Shown here piece after piece: positions 6,186 to 25,374 of a stretch of 64,000 nucleotides of DNA; position 1 is the stretch's first letter, and the number at the start of each line of letters is the position of its first letter. Source of the stretch: an uncultured Eggerthellaceae bacterium (GTDB taxonomy: Bacteria > Actinomycetota > Coriobacteriia > Coriobacteriales > Eggerthellaceae); NCBI GenBank assembly GCA_903789375.1, contig CAIFEB010000002.1, forward strand, positions 62,001-126,000. The letters run 5' to 3'. Under the pieces are notes generated by a model. That model saw only the letters and a program-made list of their open reading frames with translations, had not been told where the DNA came from and made no database searches. Made by a program: the position numbers and the translations under genes.

Positions 6186-6189
6186 CGGC

Positions 6190-8024: not shown

Positions 8025-8148
8025 GATGAACCACTGCCTTTCCCTTGTTTTCGTATGGTGCCGGACGCGTCGGGAACGCGCCCGCGCGCAGCTCAGGGCC
8101 GCGCGTCCCTCATATGAATTTGGCTGAACAACCGCTGATGAATGCAAT

Positions 8149-8603: not shown

Positions 8604-10154
8604 TCATTCGAACTCCATCGCATCGAGATAGCACTCATCGAACGTCGGATCGCCCGAGAGCTCGATGTAGCTGCAACGCTCGACGATGCGCCGCAGTTCG
8701 GCACGTGCTGCGGCCGAAAGCAGCACGGCGCTCGCACCCTCGATGCTCGTGTTGCCCACGCTCGTCGCCCGATCCAGCAACGCAGTCGGGAACAACCCGA
8801 CGCGCGCGGCGTTGCGCATATCGAGGAACTGGCCGAATCCGCCGGCGATCTGCAGCTTCGCCACATCGCCCGCGCCGATGCCCCTGCGCGCCAAAAGCGT
8901 CTCAATGCCGCCCGCCACTGCCGCCTTGGCGAGCTGCAAGTTGCGCACGTCCTCTTGCGTGACGGCGATGTCGCCCGCCAACCGGAACGCCGGGCGTCCG
9001 TCGAGCTCGAATATGCGGTCCGCAAGCGCCCGCGGGCAACTGCCGTCGCTCGGCACGCCGGCGCCCTCTTGCGCCCCCTCGTCGGCAATCGCCACCTCGT
9101 CGGCGCCGAGCATGCGCCCCGTCTCGTCGACGACGCCGACGTCGAGCAGCAGCGCCACCGCGTCGATGAGGCCCGTCCCGCAGATGCCGACCGGGTCCTC
9201 CCCGCCAATGACCTGCAGGCGCATGAGGCCGTCCTCGTACCGCACGCCCGAAATCGCACCAAGATACGCCGGCATGCCAAAACGCACGTTCGACCCTTCG
9301 AAGACAGGACCCGCCGCTGTTGCGCACGACACGATGCCCGACACGTCACCAAGCGCCATCTCGCCGTTCGTGCCCAGGTCCATGAACAGCACCGGGTCCC
9401 GTTCGGCGAGCATGTCCACGGCGAGCAAGCCGCACGTGATGTCTCCCCCAACGTAGCCAGCAACGCACGGGGCGAAGTACGCGCTGCCGCCCAAGAACGG
9501 CTCGCGCTTCCCGAACAGCGTCACCGGCGAAAACGGCGCGACGCCGATGCCGTGCGGGTCGAGTCCCGCAGCGATGTGCTCCATAGTGGTGTTGCCCGCC
9601 AGCACGATTTCGCCCACGTCCGCGCGACGCACGCCCGCCCGCTGGCAAAGCGTCGTGACAAGCGATTCGACCTCGTCGGCGATGAGGCTGCGCATCTCTT
9701 CCAGGTGCCCCTCATCTGCGGCTTTGATGCGCGTGATAACGTCCGCGCCGAAGACGATCTGGGCGTTGGAGTTGCCCGCGCTCGCGAGCAGCGCACCCGT
9801 TACCCGGTTGTACAGGCGACACACGGCGGTCGTGGTGCCGACGTCGACCGCAACGCCATAGCCAGCACCCGCGTCAGGTTCCCACCGCCTGCCCGCGCCC
9901 GCCGTGCTGACCTCCATCGCGCGGTTCTTCTGAAGCGTGACCTCCATGTCCGCGCACACCGGGGTCTGACACGCAAGGCGATACGACACGCCCGTGTCAT
10001 CGCGCACGAGCACGCGGCATTTCTTGCAGGTGCCGTTGCCACCGCACGGCGCTTCGATCAGCGCACCGGCGCTGCGCAGCGCTTCGAGCAACGTTGCCCC
10101 CGCAGCGGCTTCGATTTCCCGCCTCTCACCATCTTGGCGAACGACAATCTTCAT
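8604..10154 (-). CDS. RACE-type reductive activator of corrinoid enzymes (2Fe-2S plus ASKHA ATPase)
   Basis: 516 residues. The N-terminal domain is a plant-type [2Fe-2S] ferredoxin with Cys37, Cys43, Cys46 and Cys62 (PCGGNGTCKKC ... LACQT). After a linker, the C-terminal two thirds is the ASKHA ATPase fold of the family (DUF4445): GVAVDVGTTTAVCRLYN, AGNTTMEHIAAGLDP, LFMDLGTNGEMALGD and KLQIAGGFGQFLDMRNA. Such proteins use ATP to push electrons uphill and return accidentally oxidised Co(II) corrinoid to Co(I). Here it is downstream of, and probably co-transcribed with, the methyltransferase genes to its right. Its natural client is probably the corrinoid fusion protein at 14014-15792. Confidence 0.93.
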   Translation of the reverse strand: MKIVVRQDGERREIEAAAGATLLEALRSAGALIEAPCGGNGTCKKCRVLVRDDTGVSYRLACQTPVCADMEVTLQKNRAMEVSTAGAGRRWEPDAGAGYGVAVDVGTTTAVCRLYNRVTGALLASAGNSNAQIVFGADVITRIKAADEGHLEEMRSLIADEVESLVTTLCQRAGVRRADVGEIVLAGNTTMEHIAAGLDPHGIGVAPFSPVTLFGKREPFLGGSAYFAPCVAGYVGGDITCGLLAVDMLAERDPVLFMDLGTNGEMALGDVSGIVSCATAAGPVFEGSNVRFGMPAYLGAISGVRYEDGLMRLQVIGGEDPVGICGTGLIDAVALLLDVGVVDETGRMLGADEVAIADEGAQEGAGVPSDGSCPRALADRIFELDGRPAFRLAGDIAVTQEDVRNLQLAKAAVAGGIETLLARRGIGAGDVAKLQIAGGFGQFLDMRNAARVGLFPTALLDRATSVGNTSIEGASAVLLSAAARAELRRIVERCSYIELSGDPTFDECYLDAMEFE

Positions 10155-10174
10155 GCGTCAAACCCCCGTTGCGC

Positions 10175-10720
10175 CTACAGCAACACAGCGCTCGTATAGG
10201 CGATGGTGAGCGGCCCATGGTTGTAGGGAATACCGGCCGCCTCGCACACCTGGTAGACCAAAAGCCCCGCCGCCTCCATCGAGACAAGGCGGCTTTCAGG
10301 ATGCCGGCACGGCGCATCGGGATACGAACACGTCTCGCACAGCGTGCAGGTGCCCGCCGCCAGCACGAGCGTATCGATGCCCGCCGCGACAAGGCGCCGG
10401 TACAACTTGAGTATGCGCGCTTTCTGCTCGCGTTCGGCGCTCATCATCGTTTCGCCGTCGAACTCGTCCTCGAGCTTGCGCACCGTCTGGACGACGAAGC
10501 ACGTCCGCCGCTGATCGATGAGCTTCTGGTACTTTTCGATGCCGCCGATTGCCGGCGGACACGCCCAGCTGTGCCCGTACATGCGGCACTTGCCCGACGC
10601 GCACATGTCGCGCACGTCCGCGCGTACAGCCAGGTCAGAGGCCGGGCACGTGCCACAATCCTCGAAACCGATGGCGTCGATGAGCTGTTTTACCGTTGCA
10701 ATCTGCGCTTCCGTATCCAT
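10175..10720 (-). CDS. DUF2284 cysteine-rich metal-binding protein
   Basis: 181 residues with many cysteines: FEDCGTCPASDL, MCASGKCRMYGHSWACPPAIG and TCTLCETCSYPDAPCRHPE. The SWACPP motif and the final cluster are typical of the DUF2284 family, whose biochemical role is not established; an Fe-S cluster or zinc is likely. The start codon directly follows the stop of the hydantoinase-like gene, with GGGAGGG as ribosome site, and RACE follows after 20 bases. The tight order suggests a role in metal handling or electron supply for corrinoid activation, but this is inference. Confidence 0.85.
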   Translation of the reverse strand: MDTEAQIATVKQLIDAIGFEDCGTCPASDLAVRADVRDMCASGKCRMYGHSWACPPAIGGIEKYQKLIDQRRTCFVVQTVRKLEDEFDGETMMSAEREQKARILKLYRRLVAAGIDTLVLAAGTCTLCETCSYPDAPCRHPESRLVSMEAAGLLVYQVCEAAGIPYNHGPLTIAYTSAVLL

Positions 10721-12766
10721 CTACCGCACCCTCCCCCGGTGCTCCTCTTCCGATGCGGTGGCGACGACGCTCGTGCCCAGGTAGATGTCGTCCCCGCTCG
10801 CCGTGTACGACTGGGATACCTTCGACGAAACTTCGAAGGCGAGCTCTCCGGCGGCACCGCGCCGACGCGCCTCGGCTTCCGCCTGTCGCGCGGCTTCACG
10901 CTGGGCGAACGCCAGCGCGTCGTCGTAAGCGTCTTCGAGTTCGTCCGCCGTGAACAGGCGTGTGCCCTCTTCGGCGTGAACGAGATAGCCGTCGATGCCC
11001 GCCGGCGTGTTGCGCGGCTCCACCTCAACCGCGCGCGTGGCCGAAACGCCCGCGACGACGACGCCGACCGCGTTCGCGACCTCGGCATGCTCCGGAATCA
11101 CGTACTCCGCGCCCAGCGCCTGCGCGACCGTCGGCAAAAAGATGTGCGTCGGAGCGCCGATGCCGATGAGACGTCCCGGGGTCGAGAAGTTCATGTCGAA
11201 CAGCGCGTCACCCGTGCCGCGGCGCGCTCGCTTCCATTCCTCGCGCAGCACCTCGTCGAAGCCCTGCGGCATCCCGTCTTCGAACGCCTTGGGGTAGCGG
11301 TTGCGCAGCAAAATCCTGACGATGTTCGCGTACAGCTTGAACTCCACCAGGTCGTACACGGCATCGCAGAACCGCTCCTGCGAAAGCTGCGGAAACCCCG
11401 TGCCCATCGATTCGGCGACGTAGCGGATGGTGAGCTCCGCCGCCTTAGTGTCGTACCGGCGGAAATCCCCGGTCACCTGCATGATGTCGGTCGGCGTCAG
11501 CCCGGCGCGCATGACGATACCCTCCGCCTCGAGCCGTGCGCTGTCAAGGGTGTAGATATCCACGCGATCGCGTTCGCCCAGAAGGCACGGACCCTCCTGC
11601 AGCGTTCTGATGAGGTGGCGCTCCTCGCGCGAGTACCGCGCCAGGTCGCCGGGATCGCGCACCAGGTACAGCAGCTCGTTGAAAGGCCGCGACGAGCGCA
11701 GCCCCGAATCCACGAGCGCACGCAGTTTCTCCACCACGCCGGGCCAGCGCTCCGCCGCCGCGCTGATGGGCTCCACGCGCTGCGGAGATATGACGAGCCG
11801 GCTGTCCTTCAGGCGCACGGCGCTGTCGCCGCCCAAACCGAACGTCTCGATGAACACGCCCTTCGTCTGCGTCAGCCAGTCGCCGATGCGAATGCCGCTC
11901 GTCATCACAGGAGCGCCGCCCTCGACGAGCGAGATGTCCGTCGTCGTGCCGCCCATGTCGATGATCAGGCCGTTTGACAGGCTGGCAAGCTCGTGGCTGC
12001 CATGGACGGACGCCGCAGGGCCGGACAAGATCGTCTCCACGGGACGGTCGGCGGCAAGGTCGCTTCCCATGAGGCTGCCATCGCTGCGAACGATCATCAT
12101 GGGCGCGTCGATGCCCGCCTGCGCGAGCGCCGCAGCCGCCGCATGCAGAAAGCTCTCGACAACGGGAAGCAGCCGGCCGTTGAGCAGGGCCGTCGCCCCT
12201 CGCGCCATCATGTTGAGGTCGCTCGACAGCTCGCAGCCCATCACGAACGGCACATCGTAGCGGCTTTTGAGCGCTTCCTTGCCGGCGCGTTCCACGACGG
12301 CGCCGTTGCGGGCGGCGTTCGCCTCGCACAGGCAGATGGCCTGCGCCTCGTCGAACCACGCGTGATGTTCGTCGATGAGCGCGCCCCAATCGGGCATGTC
12401 CACGACCGAGCCGTCGAACGAGCCTTTCGTGTCGAGGCAGAGCACGTCGCCTTCGCGCAGCCCGTACTTCTTCGCTGCGCCGATGCGGCGCAGGACCTGC
12501 TCGGTCGTGCCCATCAGCACGAGCTTCGCGCGCCCGCCTTTGCCTTCGACGCAGGCGTTGGTGGCAAGCGTCGTCGAAAGCGCGACGAACTCCGCCTGTT
12601 TGCGCAGGTCGCCAGGCAGCTCCGAGAGCACGGCGCAGATACCCCGCGCAAGGTCCTCCTTCGTCGTGCGCGCCTTGCCCTTGGCGAGCACGGCACGCGT
12701 CTCGAAGTCGAACACGACGGCATCGGTGTAGGTACCGCCCGTGTCTATGCCGATGCCGATTCTCAT
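10721..12766 (-). CDS. Hydantoinase/oxoprolinase-family ASKHA protein
   Basis: 681 residues. The N-terminal HydA-type ATP-binding fold reads MRIGIGIDTGGTYTDAVVF, then STTLATNACVEGKGGRAKL. A central block, GLIIDMGGTTTDISLVEGG, carries the second phosphate loop. The ATG at 12766 is preferred over an upstream one because GGGAGAG lies just before it and homologues start at the IGIDTGGT strand. Family members hydrolyse ATP with 5-oxoproline or hydantoins, but a divergent group sits beside corrinoid methyltransferase genes, and this copy lies between a URO-D methyltransferase and DUF2284/RACE. An activating or repair role in the methyl-transfer system fits better than hydantoin breakdown, since no HydB-like partner is present. 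This is inference. Confidence 0.85.
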   Translation of the reverse strand: MRIGIGIDTGGTYTDAVVFDFETRAVLAKGKARTTKEDLARGICAVLSELPGDLRKQAEFVALSTTLATNACVEGKGGRAKLVLMGTTEQVLRRIGAAKKYGLREGDVLCLDTKGSFDGSVVDMPDWGALIDEHHAWFDEAQAICLCEANAARNGAVVERAGKEALKSRYDVPFVMGCELSSDLNMMARGATALLNGRLLPVVESFLHAAAAALAQAGIDAPMMIVRSDGSLMGSDLAADRPVETILSGPAASVHGSHELASLSNGLIIDMGGTTTDISLVEGGAPVMTSGIRIGDWLTQTKGVFIETFGLGGDSAVRLKDSRLVISPQRVEPISAAAERWPGVVEKLRALVDSGLRSSRPFNELLYLVRDPGDLARYSREERHLIRTLQEGPCLLGERDRVDIYTLDSARLEAEGIVMRAGLTPTDIMQVTGDFRRYDTKAAELTIRYVAESMGTGFPQLSQERFCDAVYDLVEFKLYANIVRILLRNRYPKAFEDGMPQGFDEVLREEWKRARRGTGDALFDMNFSTPGRLIGIGAPTHIFLPTVAQALGAEYVIPEHAEVANAVGVVVAGVSATRAVEVEPRNTPAGIDGYLVHAEEGTRLFTADELEDAYDDALAFAQREAARQAEAEARRRGAAGELAFEVSSKVSQSYTASGDDIYLGTSVVATASEEEHRGRVR

Positions 12767-12842
12767 ATACGCGATTCTTCTCTCCCGTAATGTGCAAATC
12801 ATGCGGGGCCGCCTACTTGGGCAGCCTTACGCCGCGAGCATC

Positions 12843-13886
12843 CTACTTCTCGTAGGCGCCATACGTCTTGGCTATCTCTTGCATAAGGTGAGCACGCTTG
12901 AAGTCGGCATCGGGCGGGTACTCGCAACCCGTGGCAAGTACGAAGCCGCCACCCGCCGCCATATCGTCGATGCTCCTTTTGCATTCGGCAATCCAGTCCT
13001 CATCGCTACCAAACACCGCATGCGTCGGGTCGACCGCCCCGATGAGCGTGGTCTTGTCGCCGTACTTCTCCTTGCACTCCTTGAAATCTTTGCAATCGTC
13101 GGGTGGGTACAGGAACGAAATCGCCTCGGGGTGCATACGCTCAATCTGACGGTCGAAGTAGATCTTGGCGCCACAGTTGTGAATCATGACCATGCCACCA
13201 CGACCGTGCACGTACTCTGCCAGCTCCTGGACCAGGTCGCCTTCCATGTCGTCCCACATGTCCTTACTCATGATGGAGCCCGACGAAAACAGCGTGTCAT
13301 ACATGATGCCGACAGCGCCAGCATCTAGAAGCGCACCTGAGAACTCGAGCAGGGTCTTGTTGACCTCGGCTGCCGCGGCCTTCACGGCATCAGGCTCGTC
13401 ATAGATGTCCATGTACATCTCTTCTTGCTTGCGCATCATGGAAAGCGTGCCCAGCGGGCCGAACACAAAAGCGACAACCGGAACCTCGTCGCCGAAATGC
13501 TCGACGAGCTTTTTAACCGTGTCGACGTGCATCATCATGCGATCGCAGGTACGGTAATCGACATATTTGATCTTCTCATAGTCGTCTATGTCTTGAATGA
13601 GTTGGTTGTCGTAGTTGGGATGCGCCGCCTCGTTTTCGGGGTAGACGAGCTCCTGGCCCCACGCAGTGCACTCGACCGACAGGTCGATCAGCGTGACAAT
13701 GCAGTCGAGATTGAATTCCTCCTGCGCCTTGATGTAGGACTCGGCACAGAGGTCGGCATCCTTCGACCAGTCGGGATAGCTGCAACCGATGAGCCTACGA
13801 GCGCATCCGGCAATTATCGGGTAGTTCGGGACGCGGTCGGCTTCCTCATGGTTGAGTGCCTTGACGACTCGCTCCATGCAGTTCAT
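12843..13886 (-). CDS. URO-D superfamily methyltransferase, MtaA-like with complete zinc site
   Basis: 347 residues of the uroporphyrinogen decarboxylase fold as used by methylcobalamin:thiol methyltransferases. The zinc ligands of MtaA-type enzymes are all present: His236-x-Cys238 in MVMIHNCGAKIYF and Cys321 in VLATGCEYPP. The spacing is close to that known for MtaA. The complete thiolate zinc site suggests it takes the methyl group from a methylated corrinoid protein and passes it to a zinc-activated acceptor (a thiol, or tetrahydrofolate in an acetogen-like scheme). A strong ribosome site (GGGAGGAGAG) precedes the ATG. It lies between the corrinoid fusion gene and the hydantoinase-like gene, all on the minus strand. 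Confidence 0.88.
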   Translation of the reverse strand: MNCMERVVKALNHEEADRVPNYPIIAGCARRLIGCSYPDWSKDADLCAESYIKAQEEFNLDCIVTLIDLSVECTAWGQELVYPENEAAHPNYDNQLIQDIDDYEKIKYVDYRTCDRMMMHVDTVKKLVEHFGDEVPVVAFVFGPLGTLSMMRKQEEMYMDIYDEPDAVKAAAAEVNKTLLEFSGALLDAGAVGIMYDTLFSSGSIMSKDMWDDMEGDLVQELAEYVHGRGGMVMIHNCGAKIYFDRQIERMHPEAISFLYPPDDCKDFKECKEKYGDKTTLIGAVDPTHAVFGSDEDWIAECKRSIDDMAAGGGFVLATGCEYPPDADFKRAHLMQEIAKTYGAYEK

Positions 13887-13910
13887 GCAACTCTCCTCCC
13901 AAGATACGAA

Positions 13911-13949
13911 AAGCCCTTCCCGTCGCTAAAGCGGGAACAGGAAGGGCTT
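13911..13949 (-). terminator. Hairpin between the corrinoid fusion gene and the MtaA-like gene
   Basis: A 10-bp perfect stem AAGCCCTTCC / GGAAGGGCTT with a 19-base loop is followed on the minus strand by a short TTTT run. It could partly terminate the upstream transcript, giving more fusion protein than downstream enzyme, or mark two transcription units. Confidence 0.7.
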
Positions 13950-14013
13950 ATCCGATGTGTTATCTACGCCGCTTTGGGGCACGCAGACTCGATGCCGCGC
14001 ACGCAGGCGTTGC

Positions 14014-15792
14014 CTACTTCTCCTGCAGCAGCTCCACTGCTCGGTTTGCCGCCTGGCCGGCGTCTTCGGTGTACGCGTCCGCTCCGACCTCGTCGGCGTA
14101 CGCCTGGGTCACCGGCGCACCGCCGATCATGATCTTCACCTGGTCGCGCAGGCCGGCTTCCTCGATCGCCTTGATCGTTGTGTTGATCTCGGGAATCGTG
14201 GTGGTGAGCAGGGCCGAGCAGCACACGATGTCGATGTCGTCATGCTGCTGCAAGAACGTCACGAACGTCTCGGCCGGCACGTCGGTGCCCAGGTCGGTCA
14301 CCTCGATGCCCTTGCCCTCGAGCATCATGCGGACGAGATTCTTGCCGATATCGTGCTGATCGCCCTTGACGGTGCCGATGACCGCCTTGCCGATGGGCTC
14401 CGAGCCTTCCTTGGTTAGGTAGGGCTTGAGCACCTTGGTACCGGCGCTCATGGCGCGAGCTGAAACGAGCATCTCCGGAACGAAGACCTCGCCGGCGGAG
14501 AACTTGTCGCCGATGATGGACATAGCCGCGACCAAGCCTTTGTTCAGAACGTCTTCGGGATTGCAGCCCTCGTCGACGGCCTTCTGCACGAGCGCCTTGA
14601 CGTCCTTGCGCTTGCCGTGCTGGACGGCCGCGGAGATCTCGTCGTAGATGGAACCGCCCTCTTCGGACGCCTCGTCGTTCGCGTCGGCAGGCGCAGCAGG
14701 AGCCTTTTCGACCTGCTCAGCGGGCTTGGTCTCAGTGCTGATGACAACCTTCTCGCGCTCAGCCGGCTCGGCCGAGAAGTCCTTGAAGTTCTTGCGGTCG
14801 TAGGTCTTGAAATACTCTGCGCTGTACTCGTCAATCGCCTTGTGGATTTCGCCGTATACCTCCGGATAGGACGAAATGTTCAGACCCTGGGTCTGGCACG
14901 GGATGAACGACAGCGGGCCGTTCGCGTCGCACGCCTTCTTCACCTGGGCGCGAATCTTCTCGGGCGTCCAGTCGGGAACATCGACGATGGTGGAGTCGAC
15001 GCCGCCCATGAACGCGATCTTATCGCCGTACTGGTCGATCATCTTGGGGATGTCGTTGGTGGACATGACGCCCTGCCACACGTTGATGCCCATCTCGATC
15101 ATGTACGGGACGAGCGTTTCGGCGTACGAGTCGGAATGGTGCACGACATACTTTACGCCATGATCGTGGTAGTAGCCGTAAATCTGCTTGTAGGCATCCA
15201 GGAAGAACTCAGCGAACATGTCGGGTGCCAAGAACGTCGAGGTGTTGGTACCCCAGTCGTCATGATGGAACATCACATCGGGCTTGATGTAGGTGCAGAT
15301 GCCCTCGGCGATGTTGAGCTCCCACTCGGTGATGTACTGGATGAGCTCCTTCATCTCCTTCGGGTGTTCATAGAAATCCGCGAGGATGCGGGTGATCTCG
15401 CCCAGATAGTGGGTCAGCTCGAAGACGCCGGGCAACTCCATCGCAGTAACGAACTGCTTCGAGCGGTCGACCTGTTCGGCCTGCGCGATGAACTCTTCCC
15501 ATTCGCTTTCCGGGTAGATGCTCTTGGGCGCGTGGACCGTTTCTTTCCAATGCGTGATGTCGGGCATGACGATGAGGTCCGGGCGATGGTTCGGGAAGGC
15601 GCCCGGCTGGCCGACAGGCCACGACACCGTGCAGCCCCAGTCGTTGATCTTGTCGATTTCGCCCTTCTTCGCCTGGTTGCGGTGCTTCAGAATCGGGTTG
15701 CGTACGAACGCAAACGCATCGTACTGATTGGCGAAACGCTCGGGATTGCCGCGTTTGATTACCTCTTCAAAGTTCTCTCGCTCGGTGAGCAT
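14014..15792 (-). CDS. CmuA-like fusion: URO-D methyltransferase with C-terminal corrinoid-binding domain
   Basis: 592 residues. Residues 1-345 are a URO-D-fold methyltransferase (starts LTERENFEEVIKRGNPERF). Residues 346-378 are an acidic, Ala-rich linker. Residues 380-460 form the helical cap of MetH-type corrinoid proteins. Residues 465-592 are the B12-binding Rossmann domain with the base-off motif GDQHDIGKNLV; His480 is the expected lower cobalt ligand, followed by IMIGGAPVT. The domain order matches CmuA, the chloromethane-utilising methyltransferase/corrinoid protein. The methyltransferase half has HHSD (218-221) where MtaA-type enzymes have HxC, so it probably acts on the methyl donor rather than a thiol. 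The donor is not deducible. It is the first gene of the island's left operon, divergent from the PucR regulator. Confidence 0.9.
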   Translation of the reverse strand: MLTERENFEEVIKRGNPERFANQYDAFAFVRNPILKHRNQAKKGEIDKINDWGCTVSWPVGQPGAFPNHRPDLIVMPDITHWKETVHAPKSIYPESEWEEFIAQAEQVDRSKQFVTAMELPGVFELTHYLGEITRILADFYEHPKEMKELIQYITEWELNIAEGICTYIKPDVMFHHDDWGTNTSTFLAPDMFAEFFLDAYKQIYGYYHDHGVKYVVHHSDSYAETLVPYMIEMGINVWQGVMSTNDIPKMIDQYGDKIAFMGGVDSTIVDVPDWTPEKIRAQVKKACDANGPLSFIPCQTQGLNISSYPEVYGEIHKAIDEYSAEYFKTYDRKNFKDFSAEPAEREKVVISTETKPAEQVEKAPAAPADANDEASEEGGSIYDEISAAVQHGKRKDVKALVQKAVDEGCNPEDVLNKGLVAAMSIIGDKFSAGEVFVPEMLVSARAMSAGTKVLKPYLTKEGSEPIGKAVIGTVKGDQHDIGKNLVRMMLEGKGIEVTDLGTDVPAETFVTFLQQHDDIDIVCCSALLTTTIPEINTTIKAIEEAGLRDQVKIMIGGAPVTQAYADEVGADAYTEDAGQAANRAVELLQEK

Positions 15793-16376
15793 ATCTTCCC
15801 CTTCCCCCTGCGATGCAAGTTCTGTTAAACCTACGCTTCAACAGTACCTAGCCGCCCTGGCACCTGCATCATGACGTGTGCCCAGATTTGCCCTGCCAAC
15901 CTTGTGCAGCCTTGCCAATGACGAGGGAAACTATGCCGCTTTCGAACGTTTACCCTGTTCATCTCTATTATTTTCAATTGGTTATAATTGATTCAATACG
16001 TGTCTTTCCCAGCCGTTTCCACCCAGATGTCCGCAGCCGTATTCCCGTTTTCAAAGCGGTTTACAAAGAGCAGGTCCACTCATCCGCCGCAACCTCGGCC
16101 AGCACATTATTTTGTTTTGGCAATCGATTCGTCTCGACTCGTCCGCCCCGTGCAACTTTGGTTGAGCCGGAACAAGCGGGCGGGTTAGAATTGCCCTTAT
16201 GGGATAAACGTGCTCGTAAAGCAAGTCGCCGGCACAGCCAATGCCCTTGGTGCGCAGTAATTCCAGCGCAAAAAAATGCGCTGCGAGGAGGGGGACAGAG
16301 CACCCCCGGCATCGTGCGGCTCGGAAAACTCAACGACTAGCGCGTAAAAAATATTGAGGGGACTAGGTGGATCGCG
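15793..16376. promoter_or_regulatory. Divergent promoter region between the corrinoid fusion gene and the PucR regulator
   Basis: 584 bases with no credible gene and clearly lower GC than the surroundings. It holds a TATAAT near 15981 and, on the plus strand near 16162-16190, a TTGAGC/TTAGAA pair about 17 bases apart that could be a promoter for the regulator. A small palindrome, AGCGCA-AAAAAA-TGCGCT, lies at 16265-16282. Regulator binding sites are expected here but I cannot define them. Confidence 0.5.
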
Positions 16377-17963
16377 ATGGAACTGTCTCTTGCATTCATC
16401 GCTTCAAGTTTACAGAGGTCGTATCCGGTTGCGCTACGCGGCGCCGACGGCTATTTCCGCCAAATTGACAATCCCTACCACATAGACGGCTCACCGACGT
16501 TCAAAACCGCGAGAATACTGATGAAGGCGCATCCTACAAAGAACATTGAGAAGTATCTCTCAATTGCATGCGAAGGGGATGACTTCGGTCCCCATACGCT
16601 TGACGGAATATCGGGTCTCATCTGGATCGGAATCACAGAGCCACCAAGAGGCATCGACAGCCTTTGGATTTCCGCCCAAGCAAGCGCAACCAACGTTTTC
16701 TATCAGGTCCTTAACCTATTCGATTATTACAACGAATGGGAAAATGAGCTACGCGACATGCTGCTGAAGCGCCGTCCTATCAAAGAGGTCGTGGCGAAAA
16801 TCGGCGAAGTTACTGATCGGCCCTTCTGGTATGCGGATACGAAGCTTCATGTCCTCTATATGAGCGACTCTCCCGAACTTGCAGAAAAGAGCGAAAAATG
16901 GCGCCATCAAAAGCAAACAGGGCGCTATCCCAACGATGTCATCAGCACACTCGTTGCGAGCGGCGAGCTCGATTTAATCAATAATCACCCGCATGCGTGG
17001 ATTTTCGACGGCGCCAACAGCCGAACCTACTCCATGCCCTTCGTCTCCAAGACGATAAACCTGAACGGGAGCGTTTACGGCCACATCTTCATCATCGAGG
17101 ACGAACCGGGGCATGCCGCCTGCGACCTCGCCCTCGCCGAAACGGTCGGCAATCTCGTCGCCACCTACGTCCAGCACGGCTACAACAGCGGCGGTAGCGG
17201 CAAACGCTATACCGAACAGCTATTGCGCTCATGCCTTTCAGGCGACGACGTGAGCGTCGATGAACGTACCGGGTTGCTCGCCATGCTCGGATGGAGCGCC
17301 AGCAGCGATTTCGCCGTTGTGGTCTTCGACCGCTGCGATGCCTCCAATGGCAGAAAGGAAGCGCCTCCAGTCCAAGTAGACCAAATCGCCTGGCGCTTTC
17401 CGAACGCACGCGTTTTCTCTTACGACATCTACATCGTACTCGTCAGCGAAATACCAGCACGTGGGTTTGACGCATTCATTGCCCGCATCGCAGACTCCTG
17501 CAACGAGCTGGGATGGAGAGCAGGAATCAGCAACGAGCTCGATGATTTCCAAGAACTCGACTCCCAATACGGACAAGCGACTATCGCTCTGCGTAAGGGA
17601 GCGGAGCGCAACCCGACATCGCGAGTGTATCTGTATCAGGATTATTCAATGGATTACATCTGCCAGAGGCTGAACAGCGAAATCAACGAGCATCTGCTCA
17701 TCCATCCCGACATCGAACGGATTATCAACCACGACCGCGAAAACGGATCTGAGCTCTTTCAGACGCTGAAAATCTATCTAGCCAACGAACGCAACGTATC
17801 ACAGACGGCCAAAGCGCTGTACCTGCATCGCAACAGCGTGACCTACCGCATTGAGAAAATCAGCTCCATCATGAAGACGAGCCTCGACAACGCCGACAAT
17901 CGATTGTCAATTGAGCTGTCGATCAGGCTTTGGGAATCCCGAAAACGATGCGAACCCGAATAG
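16377..17963 (+). CDS. PucR/CdaR-type transcriptional regulator
   Basis: 528 residues, cytoplasmic, no membrane segments. The C-terminal 60 residues are the PucR-family helix-turn-helix (KIYLANERNVSQTAKALYLHRNSVTYRIEKI). The middle part resembles GGDEF-like/CdaR linkers and the N-terminal half is a probable GAF-like sensor region. It is transcribed away from the corrinoid methyltransferase operon across a 584-base spacer, the usual layout for a pathway-specific activator that senses the substrate. Its base composition is less GC-rich than neighbouring genes, and a remnant of a homologous C-terminus follows directly, so the gene may have been acquired or replaced by recombination. Confidence 0.88.
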   Translation: MELSLAFIASSLQRSYPVALRGADGYFRQIDNPYHIDGSPTFKTARILMKAHPTKNIEKYLSIACEGDDFGPHTLDGISGLIWIGITEPPRGIDSLWISAQASATNVFYQVLNLFDYYNEWENELRDMLLKRRPIKEVVAKIGEVTDRPFWYADTKLHVLYMSDSPELAEKSEKWRHQKQTGRYPNDVISTLVASGELDLINNHPHAWIFDGANSRTYSMPFVSKTINLNGSVYGHIFIIEDEPGHAACDLALAETVGNLVATYVQHGYNSGGSGKRYTEQLLRSCLSGDDVSVDERTGLLAMLGWSASSDFAVVVFDRCDASNGRKEAPPVQVDQIAWRFPNARVFSYDIYIVLVSEIPARGFDAFIARIADSCNELGWRAGISNELDDFQELDSQYGQATIALRKGAERNPTSRVYLYQDYSMDYICQRLNSEINEHLLIHPDIERIINHDRENGSELFQTLKIYLANERNVSQTAKALYLHRNSVTYRIEKISSIMKTSLDNADNRLSIELSIRLWESRKRCEPE

Positions 17964-17992
17964 ACGGCTTGACGCCCCGCCGCGCCCCCTAC

Positions 17993-18055
17993 CTCGAAAA
18001 CGCCGACAACCGCCTGTCGCTCGAGCTGTCGATCAAGCTCTGGGAAACCCGGTAG
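17993..18055 (+). pseudogene. Remnant of a second PucR-type regulator C-terminus
   Basis: Twenty codons plus stop encode LENADNRLSLELSIKLWETR, nearly identical to the end of the preceding regulator (DNADNRLSIELSIRLWESR) but with GC-rich codons typical of the genome. It has no start or ribosome site. It looks like the tail of an older resident copy left after recombination. Confidence 0.85.
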
Positions 18056-18066
18056 CGGCCCCAGCC

Positions 18067-18993
18067 CTACCGCGAGAACCCGACGACCTCGTCGTGGTAG
18101 GTCTCCGCCGCGTGCTTCACGTACTTGTACGCGCTCATGCCCTTGCCCGACAGAATGACGAGCGTGTTGAGCTTGTCGGCGTCCACCGCGCCGGAGAACG
18201 GCTCGATCGACGAGTACGTGCCCACGCAGTTGACGATCATAACGCCTTCGACTGTGTTCACGAACCCTTTCACGCGGTACGTCTGGTCAAGAAACGTCTC
18301 GATGATGTGCTCGAGCGTCGCGCGGGGCACGCCGTCTGCCAGCTGCAGATACAGAACGCGCGAGGTCAGATCCGCCGTCATCGGCGCCTCCATCCCATCA
18401 TCGTGCTGATGCTTCGCAAGCACGTCGAGCACGTCGAAGTCGATGGCGCCGAAACTCGTCTCCACAATGGGGATGTCAGGACGCTGCCCCACGATGATGT
18501 CGCGCGTGGCGGCCAGCTGCGCAGGCGTCGCTTTGTCCACCTTGTTGATGAGGGCGATGTCGCTCGATGCGAGCTGCTTGACCGCGTTCTGCGCCGTTGC
18601 GTAGATTTTGGGAAACCGAATCGCGTCGACCAGGCAAATGGCCCCTTCGTAGGAGATGCCCGGGAACCGGTCCGTCTGCGCGAGCAGCTTGCGCACGCCC
18701 GTGGGATTCGAAAGCCCCGACGCCTCGACGATCACGACGTCGCTGTCCTCTTTGACAAAGCGCTGCAGCGCGCGCTCGAACTCGTCGATACGGCACGAGC
18801 AGAACACCGACCCGCCGGCGATTTCGTCGAGCTCTGCGCCGAGCTCGGCAAGCAGGGTGCCGTCGACGCCTTCCCTGCCGAAATCGTTGATGATGAGCTG
18901 CGTCTTCTGACCTGCGAACAGGCGGATGAAGTTCTTGATGAACGTGGATTTGCCCGCGCCCAGAAATCCCGTGACCAGATACAGCTTCGTCAT
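18067..18993 (-). CDS. CobW/G3E-family metallochaperone GTPase
   Basis: 308 residues starting MTKLYLVTGFLGAGKST (Walker A). The metal-site region reads GGSVFCSCRIDEF, close to the family CxCC motif but with CSC only. The G4 motif is NKVDKAT. The C-terminal CobW domain follows. The ATG at 18993 has a GGAGGGGGA ribosome site, so it is preferred over an upstream in-frame start. G3E GTPases deliver metals (Zn, Co, Ni) to target enzymes. Between URO-D/corrinoid genes, loading zinc into methyltransferases or cobalt handling are both plausible. Related CobW-like proteins are often found beside URO-D methyltransferases in anaerobes (general knowledge). Confidence 0.88.
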   Translation of the reverse strand: MTKLYLVTGFLGAGKSTFIKNFIRLFAGQKTQLIINDFGREGVDGTLLAELGAELDEIAGGSVFCSCRIDEFERALQRFVKEDSDVVIVEASGLSNPTGVRKLLAQTDRFPGISYEGAICLVDAIRFPKIYATAQNAVKQLASSDIALINKVDKATPAQLAATRDIIVGQRPDIPIVETSFGAIDFDVLDVLAKHQHDDGMEAPMTADLTSRVLYLQLADGVPRATLEHIIETFLDQTYRVKGFVNTVEGVMIVNCVGTYSSIEPFSGAVDADKLNTLVILSGKGMSAYKYVKHAAETYHDEVVGFSR

Positions 18994-19182
18994 CGTCCGT
19001 TCCCCCTCCATGCGCACCGCGCCCGAGCGCGTTCGCCCGGTTCGCGCAAACGTTTGTCCGCATCAGAACGCGATCGCCCAGCTCACGTAAGCATTCGCCC
19101 ATATGCGTACGCGGCGCGTCCGCGTGGCCGACCACGCCGCAACGCACCGCGCATTCGCAAGAGCGCTTGTGAATCGAGCGCC
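18994..19182. other. GC-rich spacer between the CobW gene and the URO-D/thioredoxin gene
   Basis: 189 bases containing the CobW ribosome site and several partly complementary CGCG-rich blocks. No T-tract terminator, gene or clear promoter is visible. Confidence 0.4.
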
Positions 19183-20568
19183 TTACGCACCCATCTTCTC
19201 AATCGCTTCTTCGATGGTACTCTTGAGCTCCTCATTGGAAGGAATAATCGACTTCCACTTGAGCTCGCCGTTCAAGTACATCGACGGCAGGTTGGGTACG
19301 CCCATCTTCACGCAACGGGCGACGTTCTCCTTGTAGATGTACTTGTACTCGACCATGTCGATCTTATCGCCGAACTGCGCCTTCGCCCAGTTGGCCGCGT
19401 TCATCATGTAGCCGCACGCCGCGCACTGCGACGAGTCGAGGGTGAACACCTCGAGCAGTGGCTTCTTCAGATGCTCGTAGTCGGGCAGCACCACGCCGGA
19501 CGTGTCAACCTCGGCGGCCTGGTAGTTCTTCACCATCTCACGTACGTTGTCGGTTTCGATGGCAGCCTGCGCGCACCCGATGCAGTTCTCGATAGGCACG
19601 TCGTAGGGCATGTCGCAGCCCGGGGCGATGATGAAGTTGTGCTTGGAGTCGACGCTGTCCAGGATGTCGACGACGCACTTCATGTTGTCCTGCTGGTTGC
19701 CAAGGCGCATGACCGTGGTCAGCGGGATGTTGCCTCCAATCGCCACGTTGTAACGGTCGGTGATCTCCTTCGCCTTGACGATGTCGACGTTCTCATCGAC
19801 GGAGATGGAATCGGGGCCGGTCTTGCACATGCCCTCGACGTTGCGCGACGCGTCGCCGCAGACGAAGAAGGACGAGAACGCGCCCTTCTCGCGAATGTGG
19901 TTGAAGATGTCGGTGTAGGGCTTGATCATGTACTTCTCGAAGTCATCGGCCGAAATCTGGGAGATCAGCGGGTCGACCAGAGCGATGACGTCCATTCCGG
20001 CCTCGATGTAGTAGTCCGCCATCTTCATCGCCGTGCGCGCGCAGAATGCGAACAGGTCGGAAATCTCGTCCTCGAAGTCATACATGTCGGTGAAGACCTC
20101 GTTGCCGCGCAGGTGCGAAGCCAGCGTGAACGGGCCGCAGATCAGGCCATACAGAGCGGTCGTGTCGCCGACCTCCTTCTTCATGCGGCGCATGACCTCG
20201 AGCACGTACGGAATGCGGCCGGATTCCTTGGTCGGGATCTTGCAGTCGCACGGCGTCTCGGGCGGCTCCTCGTCGTCCTCGGTTTCGAGGGGGTGGCTGG
20301 TGACCGAGGGCGGGTTGTCATCGGCCCAGGCAAGGTCGCAGCCGAAGCACTCGGCCTCGATCTGCAGGTCGAAGATGACGGGCTGACCGTCGGGACGATA
20401 CAGCTTGTTGACCTCGAGCAGCGATTCCACCGCCGCATCGGGGTCGGTCAGAAACTTGGTTGCAGGATATCCCTTGAGGTGGCCGGCGTGAACGCCGCAG
20501 AACGGAACCCACGGAGCACGCTCGACTTCCTCGTGCTTCAACGTACGAAGCAGCAAATCCTTGCTCAT
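19183..20568 (-). CDS. URO-D methyltransferase fused to a C-terminal thioredoxin-like domain
   Basis: 461 residues. Residues 1-350 have the URO-D methyltransferase fold (MSKDLLLRTLKHEEVERAPW start, GPFTLASHLRG at 145-155). The zinc site is partly kept: Cys237 in FFVCGDA and Cys318 in APGCDMPYD, but the usual His two before the first Cys is Phe235. Residues 370-461 form a small thioredoxin-like domain with a CAAC pair at 382-385 (SSQCAACGYMM) and the cis-proline region NLPSMYLNGE. A GAGGAGG ribosome site precedes the ATG. A built-in dithiol could act as methyl acceptor, zinc ligand or reductant of the corrinoid partner. I know of no characterised enzyme with this layout, so the function is open. 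Confidence 0.85.
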   Translation of the reverse strand: MSKDLLLRTLKHEEVERAPWVPFCGVHAGHLKGYPATKFLTDPDAAVESLLEVNKLYRPDGQPVIFDLQIEAECFGCDLAWADDNPPSVTSHPLETEDDEEPPETPCDCKIPTKESGRIPYVLEVMRRMKKEVGDTTALYGLICGPFTLASHLRGNEVFTDMYDFEDEISDLFAFCARTAMKMADYYIEAGMDVIALVDPLISQISADDFEKYMIKPYTDIFNHIREKGAFSSFFVCGDASRNVEGMCKTGPDSISVDENVDIVKAKEITDRYNVAIGGNIPLTTVMRLGNQQDNMKCVVDILDSVDSKHNFIIAPGCDMPYDVPIENCIGCAQAAIETDNVREMVKNYQAAEVDTSGVVLPDYEHLKKPLLEVFTLDSSQCAACGYMMNAANWAKAQFGDKIDMVEYKYIYKENVARCVKMGVPNLPSMYLNGELKWKSIIPSNEELKSTIEEAIEKMGA

Positions 20569-20803
20569 AGCATGACCTCCTCAGACATGGGGCCCAGAGG
20601 AGCGCTCCTCGCTCCTCGCATCTGTTGGCCCCCCTCTGCCAGATAGCGCCTTGAATACTAGTGAGAGATGCCGTGCAAGGCATCGGAGCAACTGCACAAA
20701 AACCCGGCGCGGCGATTGTGCTTTTTTTGGGGGCGCCAATACCATCTTTTCCCCTAGTGGCATTCATACAAAATTGAGCCACGCAACCCTAAGCTTGCCT
20801 TGC
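20569..20803. other. Spacer downstream of the broken molybdopterin gene
   Basis: 235 bases upstream of the URO-D/thioredoxin gene. They hold its ribosome site and presumably its promoter; no gene is recognisable. Confidence 0.4.
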
Positions 20804-22166
20804 TTAACTAATGGCACGCGCCAACCTCAAACTGCATATTTTAATCGGGTAAGGCTTGCCAGTTTCAAGGGCCTTGAGCATCAAATCAGCTTGCGCATTA
20901 AAAATGATCATGCAGTACGCGGGATACTCCTCAAGGCCTATCATCTTCTTTTCAAGGTCTTTTCCAACGCCCTTCTCGAATCCGAAACCAGCCTCATTGT
21001 GACCAGCCCCCGCGCCAGGCAGAATCTGCCCGCCCGGAGCATCGAGGTTGCCCGTGATGGCCATAAGAGCAACGGTTACCTGACCTTGTTGCATGCCATT
21101 GGTCTTCTGATCTGCCGCCAGCCCCCACTGGATAGCACCAGGCTTGGCTTCGGCGTACATACGCGCAGCAGCATAAATCTTTTCAACCGGAACCTCGCAG
21201 ATTTCAGCTGCCTTCTCAGGCGTCATGCTCCGAACGCGGTCTTTCAGCTCATCGAAGCCATAGCACCAATATTCGACAAAACCAGGATTATAAAGATCTT
21301 CGTTAATGATGGTGCTCAGGAACGCCATGCCGAGCGCCGTATCAGTACCGGCGCGGAGGCGAAGATGGATGTCGGCCCGCGCAGCGAGCCACGTAGCACG
21401 GGGATCAATGACAATAAGCCGCGTGCCCCTTCTCATCGCGTCGACCACCGCATGCCCAAAAAAGCCGTCGGGACTTGATTCGAGCGGAGCCTTGCCCCAG
21501 ATCATAAGAACTTCCGTAAGCTCGTATCGAGGATCGTCCCAATGTCCGGGCAGCGCACCTGAGTAGTCCCATTCCGGATACGCCGTACCAGCGATATAAG
21601 CGATTGCAGCCAACCGGGGGTATAGCACGCATAGCCGGATTGCGTATAGCAGAAGTTCGGCGTCCCAAAGCATATCGAGCTATACGGCGCAAACGTACCG
21701 CTTTCGCGCCCAGTGCCCGCAAAGACGACGATAGACTCGCGTCCGTACTTTGCAGTGATACGGTCGTAGTTCTCCTTGATTATCGAGAAGGCTTCCTCCC
21801 AGGATATCTGCTCCCAAGCGTTGGTTTTACCGCAATCTTCCTTCGCCCGCTTCATCGGATGGAGAATTCGAGCAGTCGAGCAGGGTTATAGATGTAGTCC
21901 TTCAGCGCAATGCAACGCGGACACAAACGTCCTTGCGTGACCGGGTTGTTCTCGTTCCCTTCAACTTTCACCAATCTGCCGTCATCGTTTGCATAGAGCT
22001 TCAAGCCACATCCTACAGGATGGCACCCGGGAGGCGACCACGGGCTTGTGCGCGTTACCGTCAGCCCGTCCTCCTCATACCGCCATGGCTTTCCGATATC
22101 GTTTACGTCGGAAAGCGTATCGAGCTTAACTACCTGAGCCTTCTTATAGAACTCGTCTTCGCTCAT
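20804..22166 (-). pseudogene. Broken molybdopterin oxidoreductase large subunit (frameshifted and truncated)
   Basis: Three consecutive frames give one protein related to the intact enzyme at 28848-31118. The N-terminus (MSEDEFYKKAQVV, ATG at 22166, with PGCHPVGCGLKLY and GRLCPRCIAL as Fe-S ligands) runs to about 21855. It continues in a second frame (MKRAKEDCGKTNAWEQISWEE to SGYACYTPGWLQS near 21600) and in a third (IAGTAYPEWDYSGALPGHWD to ALETGKPYPIK near 20825), then ends after an unrelated LRLARAIS tail. Two frameshifts and loss of roughly the C-terminal 40 percent, including the cofactor-closing domain, make it non-functional. It interrupts the methyltransferase island, and a partner ferredoxin is absent. 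Confidence 0.9.
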
Positions 22167-22674
22167 CCTGCCCCCTCTCTCGTAACGCCGCTTCAAATCT
22201 CCCAGTAAAGCAGCAATTCCGACCGACAGGCAGACAGTAGCAAGCTCTGAAGTGCTCATCATCCCGATGGTCTCGGCAATGGCGCTCTTCATCAAGAATT
22301 GATGAGCTTGTTGATACAAGCAGGCACTTTGCGATGGATTCGACAGAAGCCCTACGCAATTAGCAAATCCCACCAACTAGACAAATACGTACAGTCAATT
22401 TGTTTATGCGATCTGTACACACTTTGCGAAAAGCACAGGCATCAGCCGCCCAACCCAATTGCCTCAAGGTAATTCGAGGGAGGGTTGTCACCGTACAATG
22501 CTCTCACGAGGATGAAGCATTAAAGAGCCGTCTATCCGCATCGAACAGGTTCGGGGGCACATTTTTTGTCGTACAGGCGCGGCGGACACCAGAAGCTTTA
22601 GTAGGCGTTGGTGGATTGGCACGCAACCCACCAACTTGCTACCAACCGCGCCCCGGGTATCGTACCCCCAAAAA
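22167..22674. other. Spacer upstream of the broken molybdopterin gene
   Basis: 508 bases, AT-richer than average. The reading frame of the pseudogene stays open upstream to about 22376 but gives no recognisable domain. An inverted repeat GTTGGTGG (22607-22614) / CCACCAAC (22628-22635) lies just downstream of the next methyltransferase gene and may end its transcript, though no T-run follows. No intact gene is seen. Confidence 0.45.
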
Positions 22675-23664
22675 TTAATCACGAGGGTTCTCTAGAGCCC
22701 ACTCCCTTCCGTAGTCTTTCAACTCGTCAAGCATGACCTTTCTGCATCGATCGTTGAAGGGAAGCGGCGTTGCTTGAGGGAAGAACCTTCCTCCGGGGCA
22801 GTAGGTATCTATGCAGCGATGAACCTCCGCACGAACCTCATCGTCCGTGATCTCTTCGCCATCGATTGCGGGACTGTCGATTCCACCTGCAATGGCGAGT
22901 TTGTGATCCGTCCTCTCCTGAATCCCCACAATGTCGTTCTGAGGAATTACTCCTTGCCAGAGGTCAATGCCCACATCCACCATGTCTTCAACGATAGGTT
23001 CGCATACGCAGTCAGCATGGTGGAAATACAGGGCCCCGCAATCGTGAATGGTCTGAGCAATCTCTTTCTGCAGCGGCTTGATGAGCTCACGCCAGGTTCT
23101 GGGCGGAAGGAATAGATTCTGCTTAGTTCCCCAGTCGTCTTGGAAAAACACAACGTCAGGGTGAATATGAACAGCTGCCTCTTTGATGGCAGCAATCTTG
23201 AAGTCAGCAATGGCTCGCAGGAGCTCCCCCATCGCCTCGGGCTCTTCGAGGTACGCGCAAAGCGCATTTTCCATTCCCATCAGGAAATGCGCCCGTTCGA
23301 ACAAACCCGCCGTGCTGAAGTAGTAGACGAACTTTTGGCTTCGGTCTACTTGCGCCGCTGCCGCTTCGGCTTCTGACCAGTCGAGCCCCGTTACCGGCGG
23401 TATTTTAATCTGCTCTTTCCATTTCGTAACGTCTTTGATTACCGCGTTCTCATCGGTGACATAGGGGTGCTTCCCCGGAGCACCCGGAAGCCAAATGCAC
23501 GTCGTTCCCCAAGAATCCTGATGCTGCTGCCCGTCGTTGGGGATTCTGTCGGCTTTGAGAATAGGGTCGTTTACAATGAGCGCCATCGACTCTCGAATAT
23601 CGGCATAATGATCTGGTTGCTTCATATCGTAAATCGCCATGAAGTTCTCACGCGGTGTCATCAT
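22675..23664 (-). CDS. URO-D superfamily methyltransferase, single domain
   Basis: 329 residues. It is closest in visible sequence to the N-terminal half of the corrinoid fusion protein: the starts MTPRENFMAIYD and LTERENFEEVI are alike, and both share DPILK, FFQDDWGT / FHHDDWGT and IDLWQGVIPQND / INVWQGVMSTND. It has HHAD (215-218) at the metal site and no cysteine at the third zinc position, as in the fusion. It has no corrinoid domain of its own, so it may use the corrinoid half of the fusion protein or one encoded elsewhere. The ribosome site GGAGGG fits the first of two adjacent ATGs. It is probably a substrate-specific methyltransferase with unknown donor. Confidence 0.85.
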   Translation of the reverse strand: MMTPRENFMAIYDMKQPDHYADIRESMALIVNDPILKADRIPNDGQQHQDSWGTTCIWLPGAPGKHPYVTDENAVIKDVTKWKEQIKIPPVTGLDWSEAEAAAAQVDRSQKFVYYFSTAGLFERAHFLMGMENALCAYLEEPEAMGELLRAIADFKIAAIKEAAVHIHPDVVFFQDDWGTKQNLFLPPRTWRELIKPLQKEIAQTIHDCGALYFHHADCVCEPIVEDMVDVGIDLWQGVIPQNDIVGIQERTDHKLAIAGGIDSPAIDGEEITDDEVRAEVHRCIDTYCPGGRFFPQATPLPFNDRCRKVMLDELKDYGREWALENPRD

Positions 23665-23838
23665 CCTGCTGCCCTCCGTTTTCGCTTATCGGACGCAATC
23701 AAATTTTGCGCTTGCTCCGCTGCGAAAAATCCTAGGGCGCTGCACGCGAGAGCTCTTCGGGCAGGATGTATAAAATCTGCAAACAAAGGTCTATAGACCC
23801 TCGTTCCATCCTGTTAGCCAAATAGTATTACGCGTTAT
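23665..23838. other. Spacer between LuxR-type regulator and URO-D methyltransferase genes
   Basis: 174 bases, AT-rich near the regulator end. The methyltransferase ribosome site lies at its left; I see no terminator. Confidence 0.4.
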
Positions 23839-25374
23839 TTATGCTGATAGATGCGATGTTTCTTCAATCTTATCTTGAGCTTGGAAGCCCTCGAGGAGAT
23901 CGATGAGCTCCTGCCGCGAATGTACATCAGTCTTCTGGTAGATACCGTAGATGTGGGCTTTTACCGTGTGGTTGGTGACAACGAGCTCTTCTTCTATCTT
24001 CGCTGTCGAATACCCCTTTGCGAGCAATATGAGCACTTCTGTTTGACGGGCGGTCAGCGAATAGTGCTCCGCAAACGACTCGCACCGTCTCTTCCATGCA
24101 CCGGTTCGGGGACCGTCTGGAACGATATCGCTTCGATCACATTCTTCGGTCATCGTTTTATGTTCCACAAAAGGAGTGTAACTATCCTTAAAGAAAAATA
24201 CCTGAATCGCCACGAAGAAAATGACCACGATATCCGTAAGCAATCCCGCATCGATATTTGGGCCTAACGTATTTCCAAGCACTTCCGCACCAAAAGAGAA
24301 TCCGAGAAACAGCCCCACGATGTCCCCAAAACGTCCAAATGCCATATTGGCAAAAGGTTGAACCTGATGAATGTGCATGTACTCTGCGACCGCAGTCCAG
24401 CAAACCACCTCGTCAATCATTGCGAACATCATGCACGCAGCAAACAGGAAATAACGTTGCGGCATCGGAATATAGGGCATAAGCAAAAATGTCACCGCCG
24501 CGACAGGCGCGATGATTTTAATAATCATATCAACCTGATAGCGAAGCCCATGGGTCGCGTCGAACAACTTGTAAACGGCAGCAATGATGATCGCAAAAGA
24601 AATCGCCATCCACCCATACGGGTTTCCGGACGAAGCCATCACATAAAAGCCGAATCCTAGAAGAAAGCTGTTTGCGACCATTGCGCCAGCCGAATGAAGC
24701 AAAGATCCAAGGTCGTAAGGTCGCGTCTTCTTCGGGCAAACGAATTCTCCCCGCGACCACAACGAAATCGCCCAAAACAGAAACAAAGCCGCTGAGGTAA
24801 GAGGGAGGATTACACCCAGGTAGGGAAGAGCTTCTGCCTTGAGCAGAAGAGAATCGGAGGCAAGTATGACGCCGGCAATCAGAGTTGATATCGCCGGAAA
24901 GACAACAGCGCGCTTATGGTCCAGCTGCGCAAGAAAGAATCCCCAAAGCGAAAGCATGCTTACCATGCCCATTCCGCTCACAAACCAGCAGACGAACAAT
25001 CCAAGGAGCGAGAATGAAAGAATGGAGGACACGCTTGGCAAACATAATGCCAGGGCAGCGATAACCGAAACCGCTTTGAGCACGTTTTGGCGAGTGAGGC
25101 GCTTCGCCAGCATGCCAAGAAACACCGCTGCGCATGCTTCCCCGAGCAGAAACACAAGAATGAGGCTGTTTTCCGAGGTTCGCCCGATGAAAGCCGAGGG
25201 CAGGATGCTGCCGGTCATCATCACGTAAAAATCTGCGAGATAGAAACCGAACCCGAGAATCCCAACCGCTTCGAGTGGAGAGGCCAAGCTAATCGAGGCA
25301 TCTGCCCCCCTGCCTTCGGACATTGCCTTTCTCGTCGTTTCACCGCTCGTTATAGCATCCATTGCAATCCCCAT
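23839..25374 (-). CDS. Membrane-bound LuxR-family regulator with 12-helix N-terminal domain
   Basis: 511 residues. Residues about 35-400 form roughly twelve hydrophobic segments arranged like a small MFS-type membrane domain. The last 80 residues are a LuxR/GerE helix-turn-helix (YSLTARQTEVLILLAKGYSTAKIEEELVVTNHTVKAHI). Such regulators are abundant in Eggerthellaceae and often sit beside molybdopterin oxidoreductase operons, where they are thought to sense the small molecule the neighbouring enzyme uses. The ATG at 25374 is used; an in-frame ATG four codons later has an equally good GGGGATT ribosome site. Likely targets are the symporter/MFS/molybdoenzyme genes to the right or the methyltransferase genes to the left. 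Confidence 0.9.
   Translation of the reverse strand: MGIAMDAITSGETTRKAMSEGRGADASISLASPLEAVGILGFGFYLADFYVMMTGSILPSAFIGRTSENSLILVFLLGEACAAVFLGMLAKRLTRQNVLKAVSVIAALALCLPSVSSILSFSLLGLFVCWFVSGMGMVSMLSLWGFFLAQLDHKRAVVFPAISTLIAGVILASDSLLLKAEALPYLGVILPLTSAALFLFWAISLWSRGEFVCPKKTRPYDLGSLLHSAGAMVANSFLLGFGFYVMASSGNPYGWMAISFAIIIAAVYKLFDATHGLRYQVDMIIKIIAPVAAVTFLLMPYIPMPQRYFLFAACMMFAMIDEVVCWTAVAEYMHIHQVQPFANMAFGRFGDIVGLFLGFSFGAEVLGNTLGPNIDAGLLTDIVVIFFVAIQVFFFKDSYTPFVEHKTMTEECDRSDIVPDGPRTGAWKRRCESFAEHYSLTARQTEVLILLAKGYSTAKIEEELVVTNHTVKAHIYGIYQKTDVHSRQELIDLLEGFQAQDKIEETSHLSA

Follow-up and report, generated by a model that had tools for sequence, protein, structure and literature searches.

A donor-side methyltransferase fused to a corrinoid carrier in an Eggerthellaceae genome without detected folate methyltransferase or acetyl-CoA synthase

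Results

The Fusion Protein and Its Corrinoid Island

We analyzed a 64,000-nucleotide stretch of DNA from an uncultured Eggerthellaceae bacterium (hereafter the window) and found that it encodes a genuine corrinoid methyltransferase system. At its center is FUS, a protein in which a URO-D domain of the donor-side methyltransferase (MT1) type, belonging to a clade without a solved structure, is fused to a corrinoid carrier; the genome has neither acetyl-CoA synthase nor a folate-directed second methyltransferase (MT2). Genes were called by open reading frame, Pfam, and NCBIfam searches. A first-pass annotation, made from the letters alone, had described a 592-residue URO-D/corrinoid fusion with His480 in the motif GDQHDIG, an MtaA-like enzyme with a full zinc site, a RACE activator, a DUF2284 protein, a second ASKHA protein, a CobW GTPase, two more URO-D enzymes, and a divergent PucR regulator; all were recovered as reading frames at or near the places it had assigned, with Pfam support, and the motif and zinc-site residues are as described (Table 1). 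It had not recorded the thioredoxin-like domain of UroD_Trx, the lack of MtaA-type Cys ligands in the fused methyltransferase domain, or the decayed Mo-oxidoreductase gene. It had read the island as a corrinoid methyltransferase (demethylation) system with no substrate assigned, which the gene content supports. That the island performs corrinoid chemistry is near certain.

The Pfam matches of FUS comprise URO-D (1e-13), B12-binding_2 (1.5e-20), and B12-binding (3.7e-24). The corrinoid half aligns to solved corrinoid proteins at E = 1e-51, and its ligand motif follows the DxHxxG/GG pattern. The N-terminal domain (FUS_N) scored only 51 bits against URO-D, and sequence and profile searches of the PDB with the FUS_N alignment gave no match, though CdmB is among the entries. 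An AlphaFold model of FUS_N (pLDDT 94.7) nevertheless folds into the URO-D/MtaA TIM barrel, with a TM score of 0.64 to MtaA. The zinc motif of MtaA, HxC...C, is kept neither in FUS_N nor in the stand-alone UroD_D: the HIC of MtaA aligns to HHS of FUS_N, and the third MtaA-type Cys is likewise not conserved in FUS_N. Three residues, D178, D179, and H219, are invariant.

Phylogeny and Repeated Fusion

A genome scan gave 283 relatives, of which 80 were kept; gene maps of high-GC loci were drawn by homology and codon-position scoring. FUS_N was unfused in 79 of the 80, the same fusion recurring only in a rumen Coriobacteriaceae contig (L061, 93%). FUS_N belongs to a large, structurally unsolved URO-D clade whose members are normally stand-alone MT1 genes beside a separate corrinoid protein. 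The clade is widespread among Clostridia and Coriobacteriia from the gut and the rumen; in the literature searched we found no characterized member.

The tree was built without MtvB, OdmB, VdmB, MtoB, MecC, MecE, and Mlp1-3 as references, and CdmB is the sole reference of its clade. FUS_N and UroD_D shared a URO-D clade that also held many paralogues from Acetobacterium and Sporobacter. CdmB and its kin formed another clade, and CmuA stood apart. UroD_B, UroD_Trx, and UroD_E, an MtaA-like protein of the relatives, grouped with MtaA at modest support (82).

The same annotation had called the fusion CmuA-like, which holds for domain order: CmuA of Methylorubrum extorquens CM4 is likewise a single chain with a URO-D methyltransferase domain ahead of a corrinoid domain, and of similar length (617 vs. 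592 residues). It does not hold for metal ligands, corrinoid ligand, or lineage. The N-terminal domain of CmuA carries Cys motifs (HTC...GC) that FUS_N lacks, CmuA has Gln in place of the corrinoid-ligand His (GNTQDIG vs. GDQHDIG), and an approximately unbiased (AU) test rejected the placement of CmuA with FUS_N (p = 7.1e-6), a result to be read with caution as CmuA is a long branch. Together, the tree, the test, and the motif differences rule out FUS_N as a CmuA homologue, and the resemblance is architectural convergence.

A second fused protein was found in Vescimonas fastidiosa, 40% identical over 589 residues. The AU test rejected the window and Vescimonas fusions as one clade (p = 7e-4); judging from the two rejections, MT1–corrinoid fusions have probably arisen at least three times independently. 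Within L057 (12097-25714), the Vescimonas fused gene adjoins an amidohydrolase gene and lies with genes for DUF2284 and a homocysteine S-methyltransferase family protein; glycine-cleavage genes start some 2.7 kb farther on. These neighbors hint at another donor or acceptor. In one Eggerthellaceae genome (G136; L155, 13084-14958), MT1 and corrinoid genes stand in frame with one TGA and a few codons between them, a near-fusion state that shows how readily such fusions can form. Two MtaA-like domains, of UroD_E and UroD_B type, share one open frame in L069 (13077-15239), and frames of this kind, ~700-726 amino acids long, also occur as homologues in G051, G057, G262, and G266. A fusion 92-93% identical to that of the window (L061/L167) was seen on a 3984-base contig of an 82% complete genome of another family (G063), which may reflect horizontal transfer or misbinning.

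System Layout in Relatives

In the relatives, FUS_N neighbors PucR, the MFS_2/GPH transporter family, RACE, DUF2284, and corrinoid proteins. Rumen Eggerthellaceae show the order MT2-RACE-DUF2284-HyuA-corrinoid|PucR plus MFS_2-FUS_N, with the HyuA-like ASKHA protein kept between DUF2284 and the corrinoid gene, and Acetobacterium shows FUS_N-MT2-corrinoid-MFS_2 with PucR. With corrinoid, RACE, DUF2284, PucR, MFS_2, and PF00809 MT2 genes beside it, FUS_N occupies the MT1/corrinoid protein/MT2/activating enzyme layout. A literature search on GPH transporters with O-demethylases found nothing. We surveyed 299 genomes of the order, counting either the N or the C part of FUS as a homologue and a PF00809 tetrahydrofolate methyltransferase as MT2. 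FUS homologues occurred in 42 genomes, 30 of which had MT2, compared with 1 of the 257 others (Fisher p = 2e-30; the p-value is inflated by shared ancestry, but the link is clear).

The relatives of FUS_N share the MT2, corrinoid protein, and RACE set of the acetogen O-demethylases (Odm/Vdm/Mtv), which, like CdmBCA, combine an MT1 with a corrinoid protein and an activator. Some of these relatives lie in one operon with an MT1 of the CdmB clade. The window differs from these systems in that FUS_N belongs to a separate clade of shorter proteins and MT1 is fused to the corrinoid protein. Of the components that define corrinoid O-demethylases, MT1, corrinoid protein, and RACE are present in the island, and a folate MT2 was not found.

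Methyl Acceptor

What the genome encodes speaks against folate, the acceptor of the Cmu and acetogen systems. The MT2 of Cmu is CmuB (PMC13222342). In the genome of the window, by contrast, PF00809 occurs only in DHPS and MetH, giving no MT2, and acetyl-CoA synthase (CdhC/ACS) was not found. CmuB is of the PF00809 type. FUS and MetH are the only corrinoid carriers in the genome, and the four URO-D genes of the island account for all its PF01208 matches; with a single carrier besides MetH, the carrier of FUS would be shared by all four URO-D proteins. Six near-complete genomes with FUS lacked MT2 (G000, G136, G004, G006, G180, and G219), and acetyl-CoA synthase was found in none of them. In five of the six, an MtaA-like enzyme with the His-Cys-Cys site adjoins the corrinoid gene, UroD_E in four and UroD_B here. 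As the genome has neither a folate MT2 nor acetyl-CoA synthase, the best reading is that a thiol (sulfide, homocysteine, or similar), rather than folate or acetate, accepts the methyl group via UroD_B.

It is established physiology that anaerobes with O-demethylation methylate sulfide to methanethiol and dimethylsulfide (PMC7374477, PMC8359953). For a corrinoid route from demethylase to methionine, the MtgC/MtgD pair found in marine bacteria offers a precedent (PMC12478193). Sporobacter, which like Parasporobacterium turns methoxyaromatics into methanethiol and dimethylsulfide, has FUS_N members in its URO-D set and a UroD_E homologue (53%); the literature searched does not name the sulfide-methylation enzymes of such organisms. 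The physiology of sulfide-dependent O-demethylation was reportedly described by Bak et al. in 1992.

Methyl Donor and Proposed Mechanism

The first-pass annotation had listed O-, N-, S-, and halo-methyl compounds as donors. Gene context and relatives narrow this list, favoring O-methyl (methoxyaromatic) donors over halomethanes. The clade of FUS_N is expanded in the methoxyaromatic demethylators Acetobacterium and Sporobacter (PMC8359953), whose genomes hold 31 and 32 URO-D genes, respectively. At three Lachnospiraceae loci FUS_N begins just after a 417-residue MT1 of the CdmB clade, and in Sporobacter a CdmB-clade MT1 occurs together with PucR, corrinoid, and MT2 genes. The His-Cys-Cys site is kept in S-methyltransferases but not in O-enzymes (PMC10418091). 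From the clade expansion, this genomic context, and the lack of Cys zinc ligands, we favor an O-methyl donor, most likely plant methoxylated aromatics.

We tentatively propose, at a little less than an even chance, that FUS is an O-demethylase-type MT1–corrinoid fusion whose methyl group passes to a thiol via UroD_B. In this scheme, the N-terminal domain would demethylate an O-methyl donor and load the methyl group on Co(I) of the corrinoid domain fused to it, with UroD_D as a second MT1 of other specificity using the same carrier. UroD_B, as a putative thiol-directed MT2, would then transfer this methyl group from Co(III) to a thiol such as sulfide or homocysteine. Co(II) would be rereduced by RACE, perhaps fed by DUF2284 as a possible electron donor, the substrate would be sensed by PucR, and CobW and UroD_Trx would be accessory. 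The computations establish domains, corrinoid motif, fold, phylogeny, and gene content; donor, acceptor, and direction, as well as the roles of HyuA, DUF2284, CobW, and UroD_Trx, are what we infer. The more specific proposal, folate-independent methoxyaromatic demethylation in gut Actinobacteria, with dietary O-methyl groups passed from a self-contained fusion through a zinc MtaA-like enzyme to sulfide or homocysteine to give methanethiol/dimethylsulfide or methionine, is possible but doubtful.

Several points weigh against transfer from an O-methyl donor to a thiol. UroD_E, the counterpart of UroD_B, is also present in some genomes with MT2 and is thus not a strict replacement, and G180 has neither MT2 nor UroD_E. 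The genome of the window is 94.9% complete and MT2 could be missing from it, although the five other near-complete genomes agree. MetH might act as an indirect methyl acceptor, and UroD_B could work in the reverse direction, demethylating methyl-thiols. FUS_N lies outside the proven O-demethylase clade and has no profile match to CdmB at E ≤ 1.

Alternative Donors and Acceptors

A donor of another hard type, such as an N-methyl amine or betaine, a methylated sugar or uronic acid, or a halomethane, would leave carrier and activator unchanged. The best models for the corrinoid domain, MtgC (glycine betaine) and MtbC, point this way, as do the GPH/MFS_2 transporters flanking FUS_N and the glycine-cleavage and other neighbors of the Vescimonas fused gene. 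Yet the clade of FUS_N is expanded in methoxyaromatic users, the tree puts CmuA and CdmB, the proven halomethane enzymes of the URO-D family available for placement, elsewhere, and amine enzymes of the MttB type form a separate superfamily; we consider such a donor rather unlikely. We regard as unlikely that the island resembles mlp systems and acts on S- or Se-methyl donors (dimethylsulfide, methylselenol, or S-methyl metabolites). Type 1 mlp clusters, which hold both Mlp2 and Mlp3 and were reportedly described by Kountz and Balskus in 2023, resemble the island in that they lack a folate methylase and combine a corrinoid protein and RACE with several URO-D proteins of the MtaA-like kind. Both UroD_B and UroD_Trx are of that kind, the genome is without folate MT2, and an Acetobacterium homologue of UroD_B has corrinoid protein, CobW, MtaA-like enzyme, and RACE genes around it in an mlp-like layout (PMC10418091). 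The His-Cys-Cys site of Mlp proteins is whole in UroD_B, has Phe for His in UroD_Trx, and is absent from FUS_N and UroD_D. Against this reading, neither FUS_N nor UroD_D has the zinc-binding Cys residues described as typical of S/Se enzymes; these two also fall outside the MtaA/Mlp set, and in relatives they couple to folate MT2 and to GPH/PucR genes.

Acetogen-type O-demethylation to tetrahydrofolate, with MT2 missing from the assembly or replaced by an unrelated enzyme, would fit the strong association of FUS and MT2 in the order, the sister genus g65, in which MT2 lies beside the same operon, and the presence of FTHFS. A PF00809 MT2 is, however, lacking both here and in five further near-complete Eggerthellaceae genomes that carry the system, and acetyl-CoA synthase is lacking as well, which makes this quite improbable.

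A system lacking both folate transfer and acetyl-CoA synthase would place demethylation in nonacetogenic gut Actinobacteria and tie it to volatile sulfur compounds or methionine, and the island would provide candidate genes for sulfide-dependent O-demethylation, for which the literature searched names none. Gut corrinoid enzymes known so far are those of acetogens. O-Demethylation in the gut alters exposure to drugs and to phenolics from plants (PMC12915777).

Gene Layout and Neighboring Features

FUS, UroD_B, the HyuA-like ASKHA protein, DUF2284, and RACE lie on the minus strand with short gaps and likely form one operon (Table 1).

Table 1. Features of the island in window coordinates
Feature	Position	Strand	Remarks
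RACE/RACo-type ATP-dependent reductive corrinoid activator	8604-10154	-	RACo domains and 2Fe-2S
DUF2284 protein	10175-10720	-	Cys-rich, with 11 Cys; recurs together with RACE and corrinoid protein
HyuA-like ASKHA ATPase	10721-12802	-	Partial Hydantoinase_A match
UroD_B, MtaA-like methyltransferase	12843-13886	-	Complete His-Cys-Cys zinc site, H236-x-C238...C320
FUS, 592-residue fusion	14014-15792	-	MT1-type URO-D ~1-340, linker, corrinoid domain ~382-590, His480
Conserved block upstream of FUS, candidate regulator site	15860-15915	-	Common to nearest relative L061
PucR-type regulator, divergent	16377-17963	+	PucR genes near FUS_N in 35/80 relative loci
CobW-type GTPase (metallochaperone)	18067-19017	-	Linked with UroD_Trx in L059 and L132
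UroD_Trx, MtaA-like URO-D with thioredoxin-like domain	19183-20568	-	CAAC 382-385; zinc-motif His replaced by Phe235
Mo-bis-MGD oxidoreductase gene, decayed	20804-22376	-	Two frameshifts; nothing after residue 443 of 790
UroD_D, second MT1-type URO-D protein, stand-alone	22675-23664	-	Sister clade of FUS_N

The GC content is mosaic, at 63-67% in RACE/DUF2284/HyuA, 56-60% in UroD_B/FUS, and ~53% in PucR and from UroD_D onward. Across 16377-31214, which includes UroD_D, LuxR-like, SSS, MFS, and Mo-enzyme genes, it drops from ~65% to ~53%, suggesting acquired DNA; CobW and UroD_Trx are exceptions at 60-62%. These two also form a module in Subdoligranulum and in a Eubacteriaceae metagenome-assembled genome, and Phe replaces the zinc-motif His in all three copies of UroD_Trx. 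A selenoprotein (SAO) link was rejected, as CobW and the thioredoxin domain scored far below the cut-offs of NCBIfam CobW_rel_Se and HUIPC_Trx.

An intact orthologue of the decayed Mo-oxidoreductase, 78-93% identical by segment, lies in G136 (L155, 16059-18431) directly after an MT1-corrinoid-MtaA-like set. Catechols are the O-demethylation products of guaiacyl compounds. These bacteria typically have Mo-dependent catechol dehydroxylases (PMC7028382). That the decayed gene encoded one is only our guess. An Rfam search found one tRNA only and no cobalamin riboswitch. Directly downstream of the island, positions 1232-8147 hold genes for cobalamin biosynthesis and for ABC-type uptake of the iron/corrinoid kind.

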